Positions 22,661 to 51,607 of a stretch of 64,000 nt of DNA are shown piece after piece. This DNA comes from Tepiditoga spiralis. GTDB lineage: Bacteria; Thermotogota; Thermotogae; Petrotogales; Petrotogaceae. The notes below the pieces were generated by a model. It had not been told where the DNA came from, ran no database searches, and saw nothing but the letters and a program-made list of their open reading frames with translations. The stretch is taken from the NCBI RefSeq assembly GCF_014701195.1, contig NZ_AP018712.1, positions 1,072,501-1,136,500 on the forward strand, written 5' to 3'. A program made the position numbers and the translations under genes. How positions within the stretch are numbered: position 1 is the first letter of the stretch; every line of letters starts with the position of its first letter.

Positions 22661-25153
22661 ATGGAAAAAGAATACAACCCCGGTTCATTTGAACAAAAAT
22701 GGAGAAAAAAATGGGAAGATGAAGGGATTTTTAAAACACCACAATATTCAGAAAAAGAAAAGTTTTATAACTTAATAATGTTTCCGTATCCATCTGGAAC
22801 ATTGCATGTTGGACATGTAAAAAATTATGTTATAGGGGATGTTATTGCAAGATACAAAAGAATGAAAGGTTTTAATGTTTTACATCCTTTTGGATATGAT
22901 TCATTTGGATTACCTGCAGAAAATGCTGCAATAAAAAATGGAAATATTCATCCAGAAACATGGACTTATAAAAATATAGATATTATAAGAAATCAAATAA
23001 AAAACTTAGGAATAAGTTATGATTGGGATAGAGAAATTATGACTTGTTCAGAAGATTATTATAAATGGACACAATGGTTATTTGTAAAATTTTATGAAAA
23101 AGGTCTTGCTTATAAGAAAAAAGCAGCTGTTAATTGGTGTCCAAGTTGTAATACAGTTCTTGCTAATGAACAAGTAGTTTCAGGAAAATGTGAAAGATGT
23201 GGAACAGAAGTTGAAATGAAACAACTTGAACAATGGTACTTTAAAATTACAGATTATGCTGAAAAATTATTACAAGGAATAGAAAAATTAGATGGATGGC
23301 CTGAAAATGTAAAAACTATGCAAAAAAACTGGATAGGAAAGAGCTATGGAGCAGAAGTTGAATTTAAAATAGAAAATTCAAATGAAACTTTTAAAGTATT
23401 TACAACAAGACCAGATACATTATTTGGTGTTACTTTTATGGCGCTTGCTCCAGAATCACCACTTGTTGAAACTTTGACAACAAAAGAACAAAAAGAAGAA
23501 GTTAAAAATTTTATGAATAGACTTTCACAACAAGATAAATTTAAAAGAATAGCTGAAGGTGCAAAAAAAGACGGAGTATTCACTGGAAGCTATGCAATAA
23601 ATCCAGTGAATGGTGAAAAGATTCCAATATACGTTGCAAACTATATTTTGTTTGAATATGGTACAGGAGCTATTATGGCTGTTCCTGCCCATGATCAAAG
23701 GGATTTTGAATTTGCAAAAGAGTTTGATTTACCAATAAGAGTTGTTATTTTGCCAGAAGGAAAAGATTTGAATGCGAAAGAAATGACTGAAGCACATGTT
23801 GCTGAAGGAATAATGTTGAATTCAGGAAAGTTCAATGGAATGAAAAATAAAGAGGCATTAAAAGAAATTGCAAAATGGTTAGAAGAAGAAAAAATTGGAA
23901 AAATGACAACTCAATATAAATTGAGAGATTGGTTAATTTCAAGACAAAGATATTGGGGAGCACCTATTCCAATTGTATACTGTGAAAAGTGTGGAGCTGT
24001 ACCAGTACCTGAAAAAGATTTACCAGTAAAACTTCCAAAAAATGTTGAATTTGATGAAACTGGAAAAAGTCCTTTGGTAGGGAACAAAGAATTTGTTGAA
24101 ACAACTTGTCCAGTTTGTGGTGGAAAGGCAAAACGTGAAGTTGACACAATGGATACCTTTGTTGATTCATCTTGGTATTATTTAAGGTATATAAATCCAA
24201 AGATGACAGATAAAATTTTTGACAAAAAAGATGTAAATAATTGGCTTCCTGTTGATCAATATATTGGTGGAGTAGAGCATGCGATTCTTCATTTGCTATA
24301 TTCTAGATTTATAACAAAAGTTTTGAACGATATGGAATTAATAGATTTTGATGAACCATTTACTAAATTATTTACTCAAGGAATGATTTACAAAGATGGC
24401 GCAAAAATGTCAAAATCAAAAGGAAATGTGGTTTCTCCAGAAGACATAATAAAAAAATATGGCACAGATGCACTTAGAACTTATATACTGTTTATAGGTC
24501 CACCTGAAAAAGATGCTGAATGGAATGATAGCGGTATAGATGGAATATACAGATTTTTAAATAGAGTATGGAATAATTATGTTAAATTCATTGAAAAGAT
24601 AAGAGATATTGAATTAAATACAGTAGAAGTAAAAACAAAAGAAGAAAAAAATCTAAGAAGAAAATTACATCAAATGATAGAAAAAATAACTAGAGATATA
24701 GAAGGAAGTTTTCAATTTAATACAGCAATTAGTGGTATGATGGAAATAACAAATGAACTTTCACATTATTTAAAAAATGTAAAAGAAGAATCTTGGAATT
24801 TGAAACTTTTAAAAGAAGTTGGAAGAGATTTTGCAATAATGATTTCACCTATAGCTCCTCATTTATCAGAAGAACTTTGGAGTTTAATGGGAAACAATGA
24901 AACAATTTTAAAAGCAGAGTGGCCTAAGGTTGATAAAAAAGCATTAGAAGTTGATGAATTAAAGATAATAGTTCAAGTAAATGGAAAGGTAAGAAACACA
25001 ATAATGATTTCTCCAGATGAAAAAGAAGATAAAGTAAAAGAAATTGCTTTAAATGATGAGAGAGTAAAAAAATTTATAGAAGGTAAAAATATTGTAAAGG
25101 TAATTTATGTTCCTAAAAAGCTTGTTAGCATAGTTATAAAGGGGGATAAATAA
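22661..25153 (+). CDS. leuS: leucyl-tRNA synthetase
   Basis: An 830-residue class Ia synthetase of normal length. The HIGH-type motif [11 protein letters not shown] is at ~42-52, zinc-type Cys pairs in CPSC...CERCG (~154-175), the CP1 editing domain with [11 protein letters not shown] (~246) and [15 protein letters not shown] (~336), and [13 protein letters not shown] (~580). The start ATG 22661 follows GGAGGG; an ATG 18 bases upstream lacks a ribosome site. It heads the operon that contains rex. Confidence 0.97.
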
Positions 25154-25824
25154 TGCTAAAAAGAAGCAAAATACCTAAACCGACAGTAAAAAGACTTGCT
25201 GTATATTTTAGATGTATAACAAAGTTAAGTAATGATGGAATTGAAAAAACTTCGTCTAAAGAAATTGCAGAAAGGCTTAGTATAAAAGCTTCTCAAGTTA
25301 GAAAAGATTTATCATATTTTGGGGAATTTGGTAAAAGAGGAGTAGGTTATGATATAGAAAAACTTTCGTTTAAGTTAAGAGAAATATTGGGTTTAGAAAA
25401 GTTATGGAATGTAGCAATAGTTGGATCTGGAAATCTTGGTTTTGCAATAGCAAATTATTCAGGATTAGAAGCAAATGGATTTAAAGTGGTTTCTGCATTT
25501 GATATTGATGAAAAGAAAATTGGCAATGTAATACTTCCTGGTGTAACTATAAAAAGATTTTCTGAATTTTCAAAAGAAATTAAGGAAAAAGATATAGAAA
25601 TAGCAATATTAACTGTTCCTGCAAATGTTGCACAAGATGTAGCAGACAAAGTTATAGATAATGGAATAAAAGGAATATTGAATTTTTGTCCAGTTCCTTT
25701 ATCAGCTCCTGAAAATGTATCAATAGAAGATGTTGATTTTGTAATTTCATTAAAGGCATTGACTTTTGAAATAACTTCAAGAGAACAAGAAAAAAAAGAA
25801 CAAGAAAAAAGAAACAATGCCTAA
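25153..25824 (+). CDS. rex: redox-sensing transcriptional repressor Rex
   Basis: A 223-residue repressor. The N-terminal winged helix (1-~80) has [14 protein letters not shown] and [22 protein letters not shown]; the C-terminal Rossmann domain has [16 protein letters not shown] (~88-103) binding NAD(H). Rex releases DNA when NADH is high. Its start overlaps the leuS stop (TAATG). A close match to the Rex operator lies at 27309-27326 at the hydrogenase maturation promoter, a likely target. Confidence 0.95.
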
Positions 25825-26402: not shown

Positions 26403-26669
26403 ATGTTATATTTAATTCTTTTTTCTTTTATAGCAGGATTAACATTAGGTATAAAAGGTAAGTTAAGGTTTTTAAAAAAATATAAACCAGTAACATATAT
26501 TACTGTTTTGCTTTTATTTTTTATGGGAATGGATATAGGTGCAAATAAATCATTAATATCTCAACTTCCTAAAATAGGTCTATTAGCTTTTTTTATAGCT
26601 ATATTTTCTATTATAGGTAGTATTTTATTTACTATGATATATGAGAAAGCAAGAAGTGATAAAAAATGA
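26403..26669 (+). CDS. LysO-like exporter, N-terminal half
   Basis: An 88-residue protein with three membrane helices. Its FIAGLTLGIKGKLRFL and LLLFFMGMDIGANKSLI match the first third of LysO (DUF340), a lysine exporter that is usually one protein of ~300 residues. Here the family is split: the second part starts at 26666 with a 4-base ATGA overlap. Both halves are clean reading frames, so this looks like a real two-subunit form, not a frameshift. Confidence 0.75.
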   Translation: MLYLILFSFIAGLTLGIKGKLRFLKKYKPVTYITVLLLFFMGMDIGANKSLISQLPKIGLLAFFIAIFSIIGSILFTMIYEKARSDKK

Positions 26670-27241
26670 TTTTACTTTTATCTGCTGTTATTTTAGGAAT
26701 TTTATTTGGACTTTTTTCTGGTTTTAGTATTTCTGGAAATTTAATTACTGTATTATTAATGATATTGGTTTTTACTGTTGGTGTTGATATAGGACTTGAA
26801 GAAAATATACTTCAAAAAATAAAAGCTAGTATCAAGACTATACTTATTCAATCTATACTAACTATTTTAGGGACATTAACCTTTAGTGGATTTGTTGCTT
26901 TTTTTACTTCTTTAACAGTTAAAGAAGCAATTGGTGCAGCTTCCGGATTAGGATGGTATTCATTGTCTGGAGTTATGATTAGTGGTATGTATTCTCCAGT
27001 TCTTGGAGCTATTTCTTTTACATCAAATGTAATAAGAGAAGTTTTGGGCATTCTTTTGATTCCCATAGTTTCAAAGTTTTCAGAACTTGGTGCAATTTCA
27101 ATAGGTGGTGCAACAAGTATGGATACTCTTTTGGGAATAATTTCAAAAAATACAAATAAAAAAAATACATTGGTAGCTTTTGGACAAGGTGTTGTATTGT
27201 CAATTACTGTTCCGTTATTGATAAGTATAATTTTTAGTTAG
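26666..27241 (+). CDS. LysO-like exporter, C-terminal half
   Basis: A 191-residue protein with about six membrane helices. GVDIGLEENILQKIK, AASGLGWYSLSGVMISG and GGATSMDTLLGII are characteristic of the larger part of LysO (DUF340). It presumably pairs with the 88-residue protein to form a lysine or related exporter. Lysine synthesis genes lie at 43.5-51.3 kb. Confidence 0.8.
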   Translation: MILLLSAVILGILFGLFSGFSISGNLITVLLMILVFTVGVDIGLEENILQKIKASIKTILIQSILTILGTLTFSGFVAFFTSLTVKEAIGAASGLGWYSLSGVMISGMYSPVLGAISFTSNVIREVLGILLIPIVSKFSELGAISIGGATSMDTLLGIISKNTNKKNTLVAFGQGVVLSITVPLLISIIFS

Positions 27242-27292
27242 TTTTTAATCGTTTGATTTTAAAAAAAATGAAATATTTTTTTAAAGTAGTAG

Positions 27293-27301
27293 TGCTATTA
27301 T
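27293..27301 (+). promoter_or_regulatory. extended -10 promoter of the hydrogenase maturation operon
   Basis: TGC-TATTAT, an extended -10 with no good -35. Start of transcription is predicted near 27308, 127 bases before the first gene. Confidence 0.5.
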
Positions 27302-27308
27302 ATGAGTG

Positions 27309-27326
27309 ATGTTAAAAAAATAACAA
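27309..27326 (+). promoter_or_regulatory. Rex-type operator
   Basis: ATGTTAAAAAAATAACAA matches the Rex consensus TTGTTAA-N4-TTAACAA at 12 of 14 fixed positions with correct spacing. It lies at the predicted transcription start of the hydrogenase maturation operon, where binding would block transcription. rex is 2.1 kb upstream. Binding is inferred. Confidence 0.65.
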
Positions 27327-27365
27327 GTTAATATCTTCCTAAGATGAAGGATGAAAATCTAACAT

Positions 27366-27434
27366 TGAGGGAAGGGGTAAAATTACGGGTAATCTACCCC
27401 TTTTCTCAGTGTATGAGAAAAGGGGTGTTTTTTA
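27366..27434 (+). promoter_or_regulatory. attenuator / riboswitch-like leader of the hydrogenase maturation operon
   Basis: Two exclusive hairpins share one strand. The first pairs AAGGGGTA (27372-27379) with TACCCCTT (27395-27402). The second is a perfect 13-bp stem, ACCCCTTTTCTCA (27396-27408) with TGAGAAAAGGGGT (27414-27426), followed by GTTTTTT. The 3' arm of the second also contains the GGGGTG ribosome site for the TTG start at 27435. Forming it would end transcription and hide the ribosome site; the first hairpin would prevent it. I do not recognise the upstream part as a known riboswitch. Confidence 0.6.
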
Positions 27435-27683
27435 TTGGAAAATAAAGTTGCCATGATTTCCATAGCAATAACGGATAGAAAAAATTCTTATTTACAGGTT
27501 AACGAAATTCTTCACAATTTTAGAGAAAAGATAAATCTTAGAGTTGGATATCCAATGACTGAAAAAAATGTTGCAATAATTTTTATTATTTTTGAAGGTA
27601 CAACAGATGAAATTGGAGCATTGAATGGTAAATTAGGTCAGTTAAATGGTGTAAAAGTAAAATCACACACATTAAAAATTTAG
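27435..27683 (+). CDS. TM1266-like iron-only hydrogenase system regulator
   Basis: An 82-residue ACT-like small protein. VAMISIAITDRKNSYLQVNEILHNF and RVGYPMTEKNVAIIFIIFEG match the TM1266-type putative regulator found with HydEFG genes. Its biochemical role is not established. The TTG start has GGGGTG 7 bases upstream, inside the leader hairpin. First gene of the maturation operon. Confidence 0.8.
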   Translation: MENKVAMISIAITDRKNSYLQVNEILHNFREKINLRVGYPMTEKNVAIIFIIFEGTTDEIGALNGKLGQLNGVKVKSHTLKI

Positions 27684-27694
27684 GAGGAAAAAAT

Positions 27695-29119
27695 ATGTTT
27701 TATGCAAAAGAAATAGAAGAAGCTGAAAAATTAGAATCATTTATACCAAATGATGAAATACTTGATTTGTTAGAAAACACAAAAGAACCAGATAAAAAAT
27801 ATGTTAGAGAAATAATTCAAAAATCTTTAAATAAAAATCGTCTTGAACCTGTTGAAGTTGCTACTCTTTTAAATGTAAAAGATGAAGATCTTTTAGAAGA
27901 AATTTTTGAAGGAGCAAGGACTTTAAAAGAAAAAATATATGGAAATAGAATAGTTCTTTTTGCTCCTCTTTATGTTGGAAACGAATGTATAAATGATTGC
28001 CAATATTGTGGTTTTAGAACATCAAATTCAGAAATATACAGAAATTCTTTAACAATGGAAACATTAGAAAAAGAAGTAGAATCATTAGTTGATAAAGGAC
28101 ACAAAAGATTAATAATGGTTTATGGAGAACATCCTAAATATGATGCAAATTTTATTGCAAAGACAGTAGAAAAAGTTTATACAGTAAAAAAAGATAGAGG
28201 AGAAATAAGAAGAGTAAATATAAATGCAGCTCCTTTAAATATAGAAGAATTTAAAACTGTAAAAGATGCAGGAATAGGAACTTATCAAATTTTTCAAGAA
28301 ACATATCATCTTGAAACATACAAAAAAGTTCATCCAAGAGGTCCAAAATCAAGTTTTAATTGGAGATTGTATGGACTCGATAGAGCAATAAAGGCTGGTA
28401 TTGATGATGTTGGAATTGGTGCATTGTTTGGACTTTATGATTGGAAATTTGAAGTTATGGGGCTTTTGTATCATACAATTCATTTTGAAAATACATTTGG
28501 TTTTGGTCCGCATACAATTTCATTCCCAAGATTGGAACCCGCTATAAATACACCAATAGCAGAAAGACCACCTCATCTTGTTTCTGATGAAGATTTTAAA
28601 AAATTAGTTGCAATAATAAGGCTTGCAGTTCCTTATACAGGTTTGATATTAACAGCAAGAGAACCACTTGAAATAAGAAATGAAGTAATAAAATTTGGTG
28701 TATCACAAATAGATGCTGGTTCAAGTATAGGAATAGGTTCTTATTCTCATGATGACTTGGAAAATTATAAAAAAAGTCAATTTGTATTAGGTGATCAAAG
28801 AAGTTTAGATGAAGTAATAAAAGAATTAACAGATCATGGATTTATTCCATCTTTTTGTACAGGATGTTATAGACTTGGAAGAACTGGAGAACACTTTATG
28901 GAATTTTCTGTTCCAGGATTCGTTAAAAGATTTTGTACTCCAAATGCAGTAACTACTTTAATGGAATATGTTGTTGATTATGCTTCTCCTGAAACGAAAA
29001 AATCTTGTGAAATACAAATTCAAAGAGAATTAGACGCAATGCCTGAATCTGAAATGAAACAGCAACTTTTAAAATATATAGATATGGTGAAAGATGGAGT
29101 TAGAGATGTATACTTTTGA
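27695..29119 (+). CDS. hydG: [FeFe]-hydrogenase H-cluster radical SAM maturase HydG
   Basis: A 474-residue radical SAM enzyme that cleaves tyrosine to give CO and CN- for the H-cluster. The radical SAM cluster Cys are C98, C102 and C105 (CINDCQYC). The second cluster, which separates HydG from ThiH, is C388xxC391 plus C414 (CTGC...FC, CX2CX22C). Both are intact. AGGAGG precedes the ATG, 11 bases after the regulator gene. Confidence 0.96.
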   Translation: MFYAKEIEEAEKLESFIPNDEILDLLENTKEPDKKYVREIIQKSLNKNRLEPVEVATLLNVKDEDLLEEIFEGARTLKEKIYGNRIVLFAPLYVGNECINDCQYCGFRTSNSEIYRNSLTMETLEKEVESLVDKGHKRLIMVYGEHPKYDANFIAKTVEKVYTVKKDRGEIRRVNINAAPLNIEEFKTVKDAGIGTYQIFQETYHLETYKKVHPRGPKSSFNWRLYGLDRAIKAGIDDVGIGALFGLYDWKFEVMGLLYHTIHFENTFGFGPHTISFPRLEPAINTPIAERPPHLVSDEDFKKLVAIIRLAVPYTGLILTAREPLEIRNEVIKFGVSQIDAGSSIGIGSYSHDDLENYKKSQFVLGDQRSLDEVIKELTDHGFIPSFCTGCYRLGRTGEHFMEFSVPGFVKRFCTPNAVTTLMEYVVDYASPETKKSCEIQIQRELDAMPESEMKQQLLKYIDMVKDGVRDVYF

Positions 29120-29327
29120 TGATTTGAAAAATAAAATAGATTATATTTATGATACCTTCTCAGTCAAAGCTTATTTGACTGAGAAGATCAAAAAAAGAGT
29201 TAGTTATATCTATGGAAAAGGTGATGGATTCAATCTTTCTCCAACTAAGGTTTATGAAGATGAAAAGTATATTGTTTTTGTTGAAGCAAGTGAAGAACTG
29301 TGTAAAACAATAATGAATGAATGGTAA
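29106..29327 (+). CDS. small protein of the hydrogenase maturation operon
   Basis: A 73-residue protein of unknown function between hydG and hydE; Thermotoga has a small gene in the same place. It contains DDLKNKIDYIYDTFSVKAYLTEKIKKRVSYIYG and ends in EASEELCKTIMNEW with a single Cys. ATG 29106 has GGAG at the right distance; ATG 29094 is the alternative. It overlaps hydG by 14 bases. A strong hairpin (29156-29186) lies in its coding sequence. Confidence 0.65.
   Translation: MYTFDDLKNKIDYIYDTFSVKAYLTEKIKKRVSYIYGKGDGFNLSPTKVYEDEKYIVFVEASEELCKTIMNEW
29156..29186 (+). repeat. 13-bp perfect inverted repeat inside a coding region
   Basis: CTTCTCAGTCAAA (29156-29168), loop GCTTA, TTTGACTGAGAAG (29174-29186). 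No T-run follows on the plus strand, so it is not a terminator. It may form an mRNA hairpin between hydG and hydE. Confidence 0.85.
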
Positions 29328-29369: not shown

Positions 29370-30428
29370 ATGTTTTCAAAAATATATGAAAATGCAAATA
29401 AAAAAATAAAATGCATTTTAGATAATTTTTCTAAAAATGAAACAATAGAAAAAGAAGATATAATATACATATTAAATTTAAAAGAAGTAAGAGAAAGAGA
29501 AATAATCTTTCAAGCTTCAGAAATAATAAAAAATAAATATACATCTGGATATATAAGTGTAAAAGGAGTAATTGAATTTACTAATTATTGTAAAAAAAAC
29601 TGTACGTATTGTGGAATAAGAAGAGAAAATAAAAATATAAATAGATATAGAATGTCTATTGAAGAAATTATTGAAACATCAAAAAATGCAGCTAAATGGG
29701 GTCTTGATACAATAATTCTTCAAGGTGGTGAAGATTTATTCTTCACTGATGATATGATGATAAGTATAATAAAACAAATAAAAAAAGAAACAAAGTTACC
29801 TGTATCCATATCAATAGGAGAAAGACCGCTAGAATCTTATAGAAAATTCAAAAGAGCTGGTGCAATAAGATCACTTTTAAAACATGAAGCAATAAACAAA
29901 AAAATTTTTGATGAAGTTCATCCAGATAAAGATTATGAAAATAGAATAAATTTATTGAGGTATATGAATATATTGGGATATGTTGCTGGATCTGGAAATA
30001 TAATTGGATTACCAAAACAAACGATTGAAGATATAGCAGATGACATAATATTTATGAGAGATGAAAAAATAAAAATGATTGGGATAGGACCATTGATTCC
30101 ATCTAAAAATACTCCATTAGAAAATTATAAAATTGGGAGCGCTGACATAACTTTAAATGCTTATGCAGCAACCAGATTTGCAATACCAAGAGTTCAATTG
30201 CCAACTACAACTGCTCTTGGAACGATATCAGAAGAACTTCAATTTAAAGCTTTTGAAGCTGGATGTAATGTAATAATGGTTAATATTACACCAGATATAT
30301 ATAGAAAAAATTATAATATTTATGATAATAAAAGAAAAGTAGAATTTTTTGAAACTATAAGTAAAATAAAGAATTTAGGTTTTAAATTATCACCGATAAC
30401 AGAAAAAGCAATTATAAAAAGTAATTAG
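29370..30428 (+). CDS. hydE: [FeFe]-hydrogenase H-cluster radical SAM maturase HydE
   Basis: A 352-residue radical SAM enzyme that helps build the dithiolate bridge of the H-cluster. Cluster Cys are C74, C78 and C81 (CKKNCTYC), in the setting VKGVIEFTNYCKKNCTYCGIR. ILQGGEDLFF, GSGNIIGLPKQT and IGIGPLIPSKNTPL match HydE. AAAGGAG precedes the ATG. A 7-bp hairpin (AAGTCTT/AAGACTT) lies in the gap before it. Confidence 0.95.
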   Translation: MFSKIYENANKKIKCILDNFSKNETIEKEDIIYILNLKEVREREIIFQASEIIKNKYTSGYISVKGVIEFTNYCKKNCTYCGIRRENKNINRYRMSIEEIIETSKNAAKWGLDTIILQGGEDLFFTDDMMISIIKQIKKETKLPVSISIGERPLESYRKFKRAGAIRSLLKHEAINKKIFDEVHPDKDYENRINLLRYMNILGYVAGSGNIIGLPKQTIEDIADDIIFMRDEKIKMIGIGPLIPSKNTPLENYKIGSADITLNAYAATRFAIPRVQLPTTTALGTISEELQFKAFEAGCNVIMVNITPDIYRKNYNIYDNKRKVEFFETISKIKNLGFKLSPITEKAIIKSN

Positions 30429-30439
30429 GAGCTGAGATT

Positions 30440-31642
30440 ATGGGGTTTGGTGGATATAGAAATTACGTAGTTATTGCAGGAAAAAGAAATGTAGGAAAGT
30501 CTTCAACGGTCAATGCTATAATGAATCAAGATATATCGATAGTTTCTGATCATCCGGGAACTACAACTGATCCGGTTTATAAAGCTTTTGAATTGCAACC
30601 AATTGGACCAGTTACATTTATAGATACACCAGGTATTGATGATGAAGGATTACTTGGAGAAATGAGAATTAAAAGGGCAAAAAAAGCATTTTATAAAGCA
30701 GATGTAGCAGTTTTAATTGTTGATGATTTACCAAATGAGCATGAATTTTTTATTATGAAACAATTTGAAGATATGAATATTCCTTATTTAATTGCAGTCA
30801 ATAAAATTGATGAAGATAAAGAAGATATAGTTGAATATTATAAAAACAACTATGATGTGAAAGTAATGGGATTTTCTGCAAAAAATAAAATAAATATAGA
30901 TGAATTTAAAAAAGAAATTGTAAACTTAATACCAGAAGAAAAAGAAATATCTCTTTTGCCAGATAATATAGATGGTGGAGATGTTGTTGTTATGGTTATA
31001 CCAATAGATTTAGGAGCACCAAAAGGAAGATTAATAATGCCTCAAATTGTTGCAATAAGAGAAACATTAGACAAAGAAGCCATTGCAGTTGCAACTAAAG
31101 AAAGAGAATTGAGATATACACTCGATAAATTCAAAGAACTTCCCAAATTAGTAGTAACAGATTCACAAGCTGTTATGAAAGTTGCTTCAGATGTACCAGA
31201 AGAAGTTCCTTTAACAACTTTTTCAGTTCTTGAGGCGAGGCATAAAGGAGATTTACAAACCTTAGTAAAAGGTGTAAAAGTAGTGGAAAGACTTGAAGAT
31301 AATGATACGGTTATTATCATGGAAGGGTGTTCACACAGGCCATTAACTGAAGATATAGGAACTGTTAAAATTCCAAGATGGCTTACAAATCATACTGGTA
31401 AGTCTTTGAACTTTAAATTCATATCTGGAAAAGAATTTCCAGATCCAGAAGAACTTGAAAATGCTAAGTTAGTAATTCACTGTGGTGGATGTACACTCAC
31501 AAGAAAAATGATGCTCAGAAGAATAAAAACAGTAACAAGATTAGGTATTCCAATAGTTAATTATGGTGTATTAATTTCTTACTTGCATGGTGTACTCGAA
31601 AGAGCATTAGAACCTTTTAATGAGGTGTGCTATGAGGATTGA
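30440..31642 (+). CDS. hydF: [FeFe]-hydrogenase maturation GTPase HydF
   Basis: A 400-residue scaffold that assembles and transfers the 2Fe subcluster. The G domain has G1 GKRNVGKSS (~14-22), G3 DTPGIDD (~58) and G4 NKID (~117). The C-terminal [4Fe-4S] site is C297-x-H and H-C348-xx-C351 (CSHRPLTEDIG ... HCGGCTL), all present. Starts 11 bases after hydE behind AGGAG. Confidence 0.95.
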   Translation: MGFGGYRNYVVIAGKRNVGKSSTVNAIMNQDISIVSDHPGTTTDPVYKAFELQPIGPVTFIDTPGIDDEGLLGEMRIKRAKKAFYKADVAVLIVDDLPNEHEFFIMKQFEDMNIPYLIAVNKIDEDKEDIVEYYKNNYDVKVMGFSAKNKINIDEFKKEIVNLIPEEKEISLLPDNIDGGDVVVMVIPIDLGAPKGRLIMPQIVAIRETLDKEAIAVATKERELRYTLDKFKELPKLVVTDSQAVMKVASDVPEEVPLTTFSVLEARHKGDLQTLVKGVKVVERLEDNDTVIIMEGCSHRPLTEDIGTVKIPRWLTNHTGKSLNFKFISGKEFPDPEELENAKLVIHCGGCTLTRKMMLRRIKTVTRLGIPIVNYGVLISYLHGVLERALEPFNEVCYED

Positions 31643-32999
31643 AGAAGATTTTTTAGGAAAAAAAGAAATAGAAGATACTTATTATGGTATTCATACAATC
31701 AGAGCTACTGAAAACTTTCCAAGAACAAATGAAACATTTGATGAATACTTTATAGAATCATATTTTCAAATAAAAAAAGCATGTACTACATTGAATAATA
31801 AACTTGGATATCTTTCAAATGAAAAAAGTAAAGCAATAAAAAAAGCATGTGATGAAAAATTTTTGTATGAATATATAATTGTAGATCCTTTGTCTGGTGG
31901 AGCTGGAACTTCAGTCAATATGAATGTAAATGAAGTTATAGCAAATAGAGCAACAGAACTTTTAGGTGGAAAACTTGGTGAATACATTGTAGATCCATTA
32001 CAAGATGTAAATATGCATCAATCGACGAATGATACGTTTGTTACTGCAGGAAAAATGGCAGTGATAAAAAATTTACAAACTTTAGTAGAAAAGGTTATAT
32101 TACTTCAAAATGAAATACAGAAAAAAGAAAAAGAGTATTATAGTGTAAAAAAAATTGCAAGAACTCAATTAATGGATGCAGTGCCAATTTTATTTGGCCA
32201 AACATTTGGAGCATGGGCTGATGCTCTTTCAAGAGATAGGTGGAGACTTTATAAAGTAGAAGAAAGAGTAAGAAGTATAAACTTAGGTGGAACAGCCGTT
32301 GGAAATGGAGTTGGTGCACCAAGAGATTATATTTTAAAAATAGTGGATGAATTAAAAAAAGTATCTGGTGTAAAAATTGCTAAAGCAGAAAATTTAATAG
32401 ACAACACACAAAATTTAGATGTTTTTGTAGAAGTTCATGGTTTATTAAAAGCTCTTTCTGTAAATTTATTAAAGATTTCAAATGATATAAGACTCTTAGG
32501 AAGTGGACCAAATACATCGATTGGAGAAATTATTTTACCAAAGATTCAAGGTGGAAGTTCTATAATGCCTGGGAAGATAAATCCTGTTATACCTGAATAT
32601 GTTATACAACTTTGTTATTCTGTTTTTGCACACGATTCTATGATAACAAATTGTACAGCAAATGGAACTTTAGAATTGAATCATTTATCTCCAACTATAG
32701 TTCATCATACTTTAAAAAGTTTTAAGTATTTAATTAACTCTTTAGAATCATTAACAAAATACATAAAATTAATAAAGGTTAATGAAAAGAAGTGTAGAGA
32801 AAATTTAGAAAAATCGACATCGTTATTAACTCCATTGATAGAGGAGTTTGGGCATGATGAATTATCTAAAATAATAAAAAGCAATGATTATGTATTAAAA
32901 GATATAATCAAAGAAGTTTCTAAAACTTTTAATTTAACAGAAGAAGAGGTCATTGAAAAAATTGATATACAGAATATAACTGGGCTTGGAAAAAAGTAA
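31632..32999 (+). CDS. aspA: aspartate ammonia-lyase family enzyme in the hyd operon
   Basis: A 455-residue fumarase/aspartase superfamily protein. The substrate-binding NVNEVIANRA and DVNMHQSTNDTF and the catalytic loop GGSSIMPGKINPVIPE (~310-325) are intact. Aspartase-like genes accompany hydE/F/G in several anaerobes, and ammonium or aspartate supply for the H-cluster dithiolate has been proposed; here the link is its place as last gene of the operon. ATG 31632 follows GAGGTG, overlapping hydF by 11 bases. Fumarase or another lyase activity cannot be ruled out. Confidence 0.85.
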   Translation: MRIEEDFLGKKEIEDTYYGIHTIRATENFPRTNETFDEYFIESYFQIKKACTTLNNKLGYLSNEKSKAIKKACDEKFLYEYIIVDPLSGGAGTSVNMNVNEVIANRATELLGGKLGEYIVDPLQDVNMHQSTNDTFVTAGKMAVIKNLQTLVEKVILLQNEIQKKEKEYYSVKKIARTQLMDAVPILFGQTFGAWADALSRDRWRLYKVEERVRSINLGGTAVGNGVGAPRDYILKIVDELKKVSGVKIAKAENLIDNTQNLDVFVEVHGLLKALSVNLLKISNDIRLLGSGPNTSIGEIILPKIQGGSSIMPGKINPVIPEYVIQLCYSVFAHDSMITNCTANGTLELNHLSPTIVHHTLKSFKYLINSLESLTKYIKLIKVNEKKCRENLEKSTSLLTPLIEEFGHDELSKIIKSNDYVLKDIIKEVSKTFNLTEEEVIEKIDIQNITGLGKK

Positions 33000-51345: not shown

Positions 51346-51370
51346 GAAATATTTTTTATAAACATATTTC

Positions 51371-51529
51371 AAACGGCTCTCCGCATATGCGACAGTCATA
51401 TGAGTATTTCCCATACAACCAGGTAATTAAAGTGGGTAAGCTTTAATTCCTTCGGCAACCGCACCTTTCACTCATTCCAAGCCTACCCAGGCGATAAATG
51501 AGTTACTAATTTTGGTTGCACCTCCGTTT
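51371..51529 (-). promoter_or_regulatory. lysine riboswitch (L box)
   Basis: Read on the minus strand, closing helix P1 is AAACGG...CCGTTT. Inside are GGAGGTGC, AGTAACTC, GGTTGCCGAAG, CCTGG, GGGAAATAC, GACTGTCGC and GGAGAGCCG, in the order of the T. maritima asd lysine aptamer. It is followed by a terminator and asd, so high lysine should shut down the eight-gene lysine operon. Confidence 0.95.
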
Positions 51530-51607
51530 GTTGAGTGTGTTATTTAATTTTAAAACAAAAATAACATATATAAGTAAAAAAAACTTTGCTTAATTAATAA
51601 TTTATTG

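Follow-up and report, generated by a model that had tools for sequence, protein, structure and literature searches.

The question at this locus is whether the leader of a TM1266-like gene, and of the hydrogenase maturation genes behind it, works as an RNA switch, and what would operate that switch. The leader lies in a stretch of 64,000 nucleotides of the Tepiditoga spiralis chromosome (the window; all coordinates are positions in it), where it fills the intergenic region 27242-27434 upstream of the TM1266-like gene (TTG start at 27435), hydG, a 77-aa open reading frame (ORF), hydE, hydF and aspA. Annotation calls the TM1266 family a 'putative regulator' of iron-only hydrogenase systems; its structure, solved since 2006, has no DNA-binding domain. 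Searches of open papers found no described mechanism for TM1266. The genes behind the leader were assigned as follows.

27435-27683, plus strand: TM1266-like protein, the proposed effector (TIGR03959, 98.6 bits against a cut-off of 60.8; PF21699, 97.3 bits)
27695-29119, plus strand: hydG, downstream target (TIGR03955, 500.6 bits)
29094-29327, plus strand: 77-aa ORF between hydG and hydE, downstream target (small ORFs at the same place in relatives)
29370-30428, plus strand: hydE, downstream target (TIGR03956, 303.5 bits)
30440-31642, plus strand: hydF, downstream target (TIGR03918, 523.5 bits)
31620-32999, plus strand: aspartate ammonia-lyase (aspA), downstream target (NF008909, 550.2 bits)

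The 77-aa ORF had no NCBIfam or Pfam match; relatives carry small ORFs of 84-93 aa at the same hydG-hydE position, and it may be an unrecognised component of the maturation pathway. In the neighbourhood, the lysine exporter LysO (PF03956) is encoded at 26403-27241, directly 5' of the leader, by a pair of overlapping ORFs of 88 and 191 aa, and a gene for the redox repressor Rex lies at 25153-25824, about 1.6 kb upstream of the operon; in Caldicellulosiruptor bescii, Rex is reported to regulate hydG (PMC6391272).

No promoter-like site turned up in the consensus scan of the plus strand between 27150 and 27450, so the leader might also be transcribed from upstream genes. Its 3' part contains the following features, of which the antiterminator 5' strand overlaps the conserved element described further below.

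27362-27379, plus strand: antiterminator 5' strand (ACAUUGAGGGAAGGGGUA), occupying the 3' half of the element (pairing with 27395-27412; kept in relatives)
27395-27412, plus strand: antiterminator 3' strand, overlapping the terminator 5' arm (pairing; conservation in relatives)
27395-27427, plus strand: intrinsic terminator stem-loop of 14 bp with the loop GUGUA, followed by TTTTTTATT (terminator scan, folding)
27418-27425, plus strand: AAAAGGGG, the presumed ribosome site in the terminator 3' arm (27414-27427), 9 nt before the TTG at 27435 (sequence)
27428-27433, plus strand: terminator U tract (sequence, terminator scan)

The two mutually exclusive hairpins that an earlier note on this DNA had proposed were recovered by folding, with corrected lengths: the terminator stem has 14 bp where 13 had been given, and the competing pairing of AAGGGGUA with UACCCCUU, reported as 8 bp, is part of a longer helix of 18 contiguous pairs, G-U included, between 27362-27379 and 27395-27412. 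Placing the ribosome site of the TTG start in the terminator arm also proved plausible, and the site has the same placement in most relatives with a terminator. The scan counted three terminator-like sites in the region (shuffle mean 0.0), and the leader folded far better than its shuffled versions (z = -4.9, 0/200 as good). An antiterminator and a terminator that exclude each other ahead of the first gene are the anatomy of a transcription attenuator.

In the sequences that precede TM1266 genes in relatives, we recognised a conserved structured element of 42 nt, which we call the TM1266 leader element. It is composed of three short helices around two internal loops of the UGA/RAG type.

27334-27375, plus strand: conserved structured element (covariance model R1, covariation)
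27334-27339/27370-27375, plus strand: helix P1
27340-27342/27367-27369, plus strand: loop 1
27343-27346/27363-27366, plus strand: helix P2
27347-27349/27360-27362, plus strand: loop 2
27350-27352/27357-27359, plus strand: helix P3, with the loop GAAA

The element is a pseudo-dyad, with CUGA-N4-RAGG on both strands outside the central 4-bp helix. Its consensus in relatives reads YUYC-UGA-GRUG-RAG-GR...YC-UGA-CAYC-RAG-GRAGGG and its loop nucleotides are highly conserved; in the window copy, UAA replaces UGA in both loops. A kink-turn was considered and dropped, the loops being symmetric (3x3) with no 3-nt bulge. The interval 27366-27437, within which the switch had originally been placed, holds the terminator and the alternative pairing and leaves out 27334-27365, most of the element. 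The remark that the upstream ~60 nt fitted no known aptamer held in that no Rfam 15 family reached its gathering threshold on the element, whether in the window, at 12 Thermotogia loci or at 13 loci mostly from other phyla; a definable conserved element nevertheless lies in those nucleotides.

The covariation analysis of relatives' leaders that the earlier note had called for gave a strong signal. In an alignment of 35 distinct copies from relatives (A1), with the structure named beforehand, 8 of the 12 pairs had changed on both sides; double-change cells numbered 60 against a shuffle mean of 21.5, a value reached by 0 of 500 shuffles, and the signal was lost when the pairing partners were slid. 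RNAalifold recovered the same structure independently. A second alignment of 22 matches, almost all from other phyla and outside model building, had 23 double-change cells against 7.0 (0/500), though these matches had been fitted to the model, which biases them towards the structure, and include two weak or chance matches. In both alignments, then, the element has what is expected of the receptor of a riboswitch: a conserved structure with covariation.

The competing pairing was kept in all 32 terminator-type leaders among the 37 TM1266-proximal leaders of Thermotogia, so loss of the alternative pairing in relatives, which would have spoken against a switch, was not seen. The best duplex in these 32 leaders ranged from -19 to -35 kcal/mol, a value reached by at most 1 in 100 shuffles. 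The other five leaders, from Mesoaciditogaceae, have no terminator and carry a GAGGAGG ribosome site in the 3' strand of the element itself, which indicates that one element drives two expression platforms. The attenuator logic proposed in the earlier note, by riboswitch or by protein, is supported by this comparative evidence.

To follow the choice between the hairpins, the growing transcript was folded at 37 °C. With the transcript made up to 27394, the element was the best fold (-15.4). Once 27395-27412 had been made, the antiterminator was ahead by 10 kcal/mol (-30.7 vs -20.7), and with the terminator complete, the element plus terminator was favoured (-38.1 vs -32.3). The order of folds was unchanged at 55 °C. 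This order implies that the element must be held during the synthesis of about 20 nt and that transcription stops if it is, so that the folding model suggests an OFF switch for whatever binds the element.

Published expression data bear on whether the operon is regulated at all. In Thermotoga neapolitana under CO2, the fold changes were 5.98 for TM1266, 6.39 for hydG and 7.52 for hydE, compared with 1.78 for the hydrogenase alpha subunit and 1.28 for hydF (PMC7039931, Table 3). The strong regulation of TM1266, hydG and hydE argues against constitutive read-through. The value for hydF counts against the model, since an RNA copy precedes hydF-aspA in Thermotoga-like genomes, and so small a change shows that the RNA does not account for everything. 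Taken with the covariation in two independent alignments, the conserved competing pairing and the second platform with its ribosome site in the element, the strong expression changes already contradict the idea of a plain intrinsic terminator with chance complementarity and no regulation; real and strong as the terminator is, we give that idea next to no credence.

Covariance model R1 was then run blind over whole genomes. The window copy was the sole match in its genome (52.6 bits, E 1.1e-9). Of the 103 Thermotogia genomes, 62 had the element; with a less strict filter, two more were added (G019 and G101), giving 64/103. Strong copies in the blind model searches stood almost exclusively before TM1266, hydG, hydE or hydF-aspA, with second copies before hydF-aspA in the presumed Thermotoga genus and elsewhere, so that hydF-aspA in other Thermotogia has its own RNA copy. 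In genomes whose TM1266 gene lies at another place, the RNA precedes hydG or hydF, an arrangement compatible with a protein acting in trans, or, in one genome (G088), hydE. Pattern and model scans also found the element outside Thermotogia, in 5/149 Ignavibacteria, 15/149 Neomarinimicrobiota and one Bacteroidales genome; these copies too stand before TM1266 or hydG, bar two stray copies in one genome. A scan for the exact pattern in 84,980 genomes, which missed many Thermotogia copies found by the model, returned none from Clostridia, a group that also has TM1266. BLASTN with the whole leader found almost nothing beyond the closest relative.

Several matches departed from this arrangement. One strong copy of 39.2 bits (G017:C78:31927-31973; leaders L120, L138) lies behind the hydrogenase gene and has a short ORF and an ABC transporter, not a maturation gene, downstream of it; it is possibly a relic left after relocation of hydG. 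The genome with the stray copies (G570; G570:C177 and G570:C104, leaders L198 and L199) has three in all: one before TM1266-hydE-hydG, and two with no hydrogenase gene behind them, which look like stray duplicates. Weak matches in two contigs (G089:C6 and G100:C38), in a Bacteroidales genome (G392) and in Paraburkholderia fell inside coding regions and were taken as chance; a further match, at G055:C51, scored 20.5 bits.

Which gene does the element follow? Among Thermotogia, HydG was found in 70 genomes, TM1266 above the cut-off in 67, and both in 65. The RNA was present in 64 of these 65, the exception (G004) having its TM1266 operon cut by a contig end, and in none of the five genomes with HydG and without TM1266, which belong to one genus (g7); their sister G052 has both TM1266 and the RNA. 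In Neomarinimicrobiota, all 15 genomes with the RNA encode TM1266, and the RNA was absent from all 16 genomes with HydG and without TM1266. Three Neomarinimicrobiota genomes (G587, G575 and G595; leaders L254, L255 and L256) have TM1266 and no HydG match. All three carry the RNA, which covers the ribosome site of TM1266, and the next gene resembles one for a TonB-dependent receptor. Five Neomarinimicrobiota genomes with TM1266 were missed by the model, four of them having a divergent copy and one a contig that starts inside the leader. In the Bacteroidales genome with the full element before hydG, TM1266 is on another contig. Every RNA-carrying genome checked encodes TM1266; the chance pattern match in Paraburkholderia comes without it.

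Fisher tests of the association between RNA and TM1266 gave 5e-7 and 2e-5, values that are overstated because the genomes are related and the RNA and TM1266 are often neighbours; some of the genomes are incomplete assemblies. Because the two are usually adjacent, their co-occurrence could partly reflect joint inheritance or joint deletion. The three genomes without HydG and the genomes with unlinked TM1266 point in the same direction as the tests. The distribution of the element tracks TM1266 rather than HydG. The suggestion of an undescribed RNA control of H-cluster assembly accordingly needs qualifying: the link to the maturation genes spans several phyla and no Rfam family matches, whereas the three genomes with TM1266 and RNA and without detectable HydG mean that the element is not strictly an H-cluster device.

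These counts bear directly on what might hold the element. It might bind a small molecule or metal directly (for instance SAM, tyrosine, a precursor of the H-cluster or some iron species), with TM1266 as a regulated member of the pathway; the switch anatomy is the same as in terminator-type riboswitches, the loop nucleotides are highly conserved and the regulon is a single biosynthetic pathway. Against such a riboswitch stand the absence of the RNA from 21/21 genomes with HydG and without TM1266, its presence in the three genomes that lack a HydG match and have a TonB-dependent receptor-like gene next, and the shape of the conserved core, an uninterrupted helical stack with two small tandem-mismatch loops that offers no evident pocket or junction. 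We regard it as the main rival, though clearly less likely than binding by TM1266. Still less probable is that a different RNA-binding protein is in control and that TM1266 is a linked co-factor. A pseudo-dyad helix with tandem G.A-type loops would suit a dimeric protein, but TM1266 was the sole gene found to track the RNA, in a screen that covered TM1266 and HydG.

The protein that we favour as the binder is TM1266 itself, on the strength of the co-occurrence, of a NikR-type fold without a DNA-binding domain and of an analogy to PyrR. Its fold is that of 2NZC, the structure of the T. maritima protein, and of the C-terminal domain of NikR (TM-score about 0.85). Counting against this choice, it is only slightly basic (+3 in the window protein) and contains no known RNA-binding motif. 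Feedback through the first gene of the operon, suggested earlier, thereby gains its best candidate effector by co-occurrence, with the binding itself being what we infer, and PyrR-like autoregulation by TM1266 bound to the element is, by that analogy, the moderately probable reading.

Under this autoregulation by TM1266, the element (42 nt, 27334-27375) would fold first. Left unheld, it would be invaded by 27395-27412; the 18-bp antiterminator would form, the polymerase would continue and the ribosome site in the terminator arm would stay accessible. Held, it would leave 27395-27412 free for the terminator, so that transcription would stop and the ribosome site would be buried. The TM1266-like protein, the first gene product, would most likely be the holder: as a symmetric oligomer of a NikR-type sensor domain, it could bind the two identical UGA/RAG loops, and when abundant or loaded with its signal it would shut off its own operon. 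The sensing of a signal by TM1266 is an inferred part of this proposal.

Leaders in Bacteroidales extend the proposal. TM1266 was above the cut-off in 71 of 295 Bacteroidales genomes, and the full element was absent from most. A single UGA/RAG unit nevertheless stood 46-57 nt before the TM1266 match in 16 of 53 inspected leaders, against 0.2 expected from a simple shuffle control in two-base blocks, which suggests that what is recognised is a single loop unit. Besides this unit at -46 to -57, some of these leaders (L209-L248, L167-L178) have a conserved UCURAUCC before the ribosome site, and its pairing with the start-codon region AUGGAAAAGAGA could form a second unit over the TM1266 start. 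In its widest form, which we rate at even odds, the proposal makes TM1266 the founder of a new class of RNA-binding regulators, in which a NikR-type sensor domain, having lost its DNA-binding part, recognises a small helix module, C-UGA ... RAG-G. Thermotogota, Ignavibacteria and Neomarinimicrobiota would use this module twice, as a dyad, and many Bacteroidales would have just one unit ahead of TM1266. It would control H-cluster maturation in most bacteria and, where no hydrogenase maturation genes were found, at least one other transport function.

A conserved RNA that tracks TM1266 through several phyla is a concrete, testable target, and a regulon of TM1266, hydG, hydE, hydF and aspA was defined from sequence alone. 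If true, this would be the first RNA-level control known to us for assembly of the H-cluster of [FeFe]-hydrogenase, a pathway of interest for biological hydrogen.

We compared the element with known systems. Searches of open papers found no described RNA that corresponds to it; one earlier survey took in a Thermotogae genome (PMC8632094). Among permissive Rfam hits, the PyrR element (RF00515) scored 27.3 bits against a gathering threshold of 54 and the L10 leader a sub-threshold 21.1 bits; both were judged chance or shared terminator anatomy.

The likeness to PyrR attenuation lies in the competition of an anti-antiterminator, an antiterminator and a terminator, in one copy before the regulator's own gene with others before further operons of the pathway, and in a small protein that stabilises the first hairpin, which for our element is only proposed (PMC7430163). 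The PyrR site, with ARUCCAGAGAGGYU located in the loop and a bulge of a hairpin, nevertheless differs from the element in sequence and loops; no pyr genes are found here, the downstream genes being TM1266, hydG, hydE, hydF and aspA, and TM1266 is unrelated to PyrR by family. The Bacillus proteins HutP and TRAP, which act on leader RNA, are likewise small oligomers that sense ligands (PMC7430163), but they bind single-stranded triplet repeats, whereas the conserved feature here is a structured helix. Terminator-type OFF riboswitches, such as that for lysine (RF00168), share the order of element first and antiterminator/terminator choice next; they differ in that our element has no known ligand or Rfam match and its presence is tied to one protein family. 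The window has a lysine riboswitch of its own (RF00168, 104.2 bits; 51366-51534, minus strand), a separate, known RNA directly before two minus-strand ORFs that by sequence resemble aspartate-semialdehyde dehydrogenase and diaminopimelate decarboxylase. Finally, the fold of TM1266 is that of the C-terminal tetramerisation and metal domain of NikR (2y3y, 1q5y), but TM1266 is without the ribbon-helix-helix DNA-binding domain of NikR, so any regulation by TM1266 must act otherwise.
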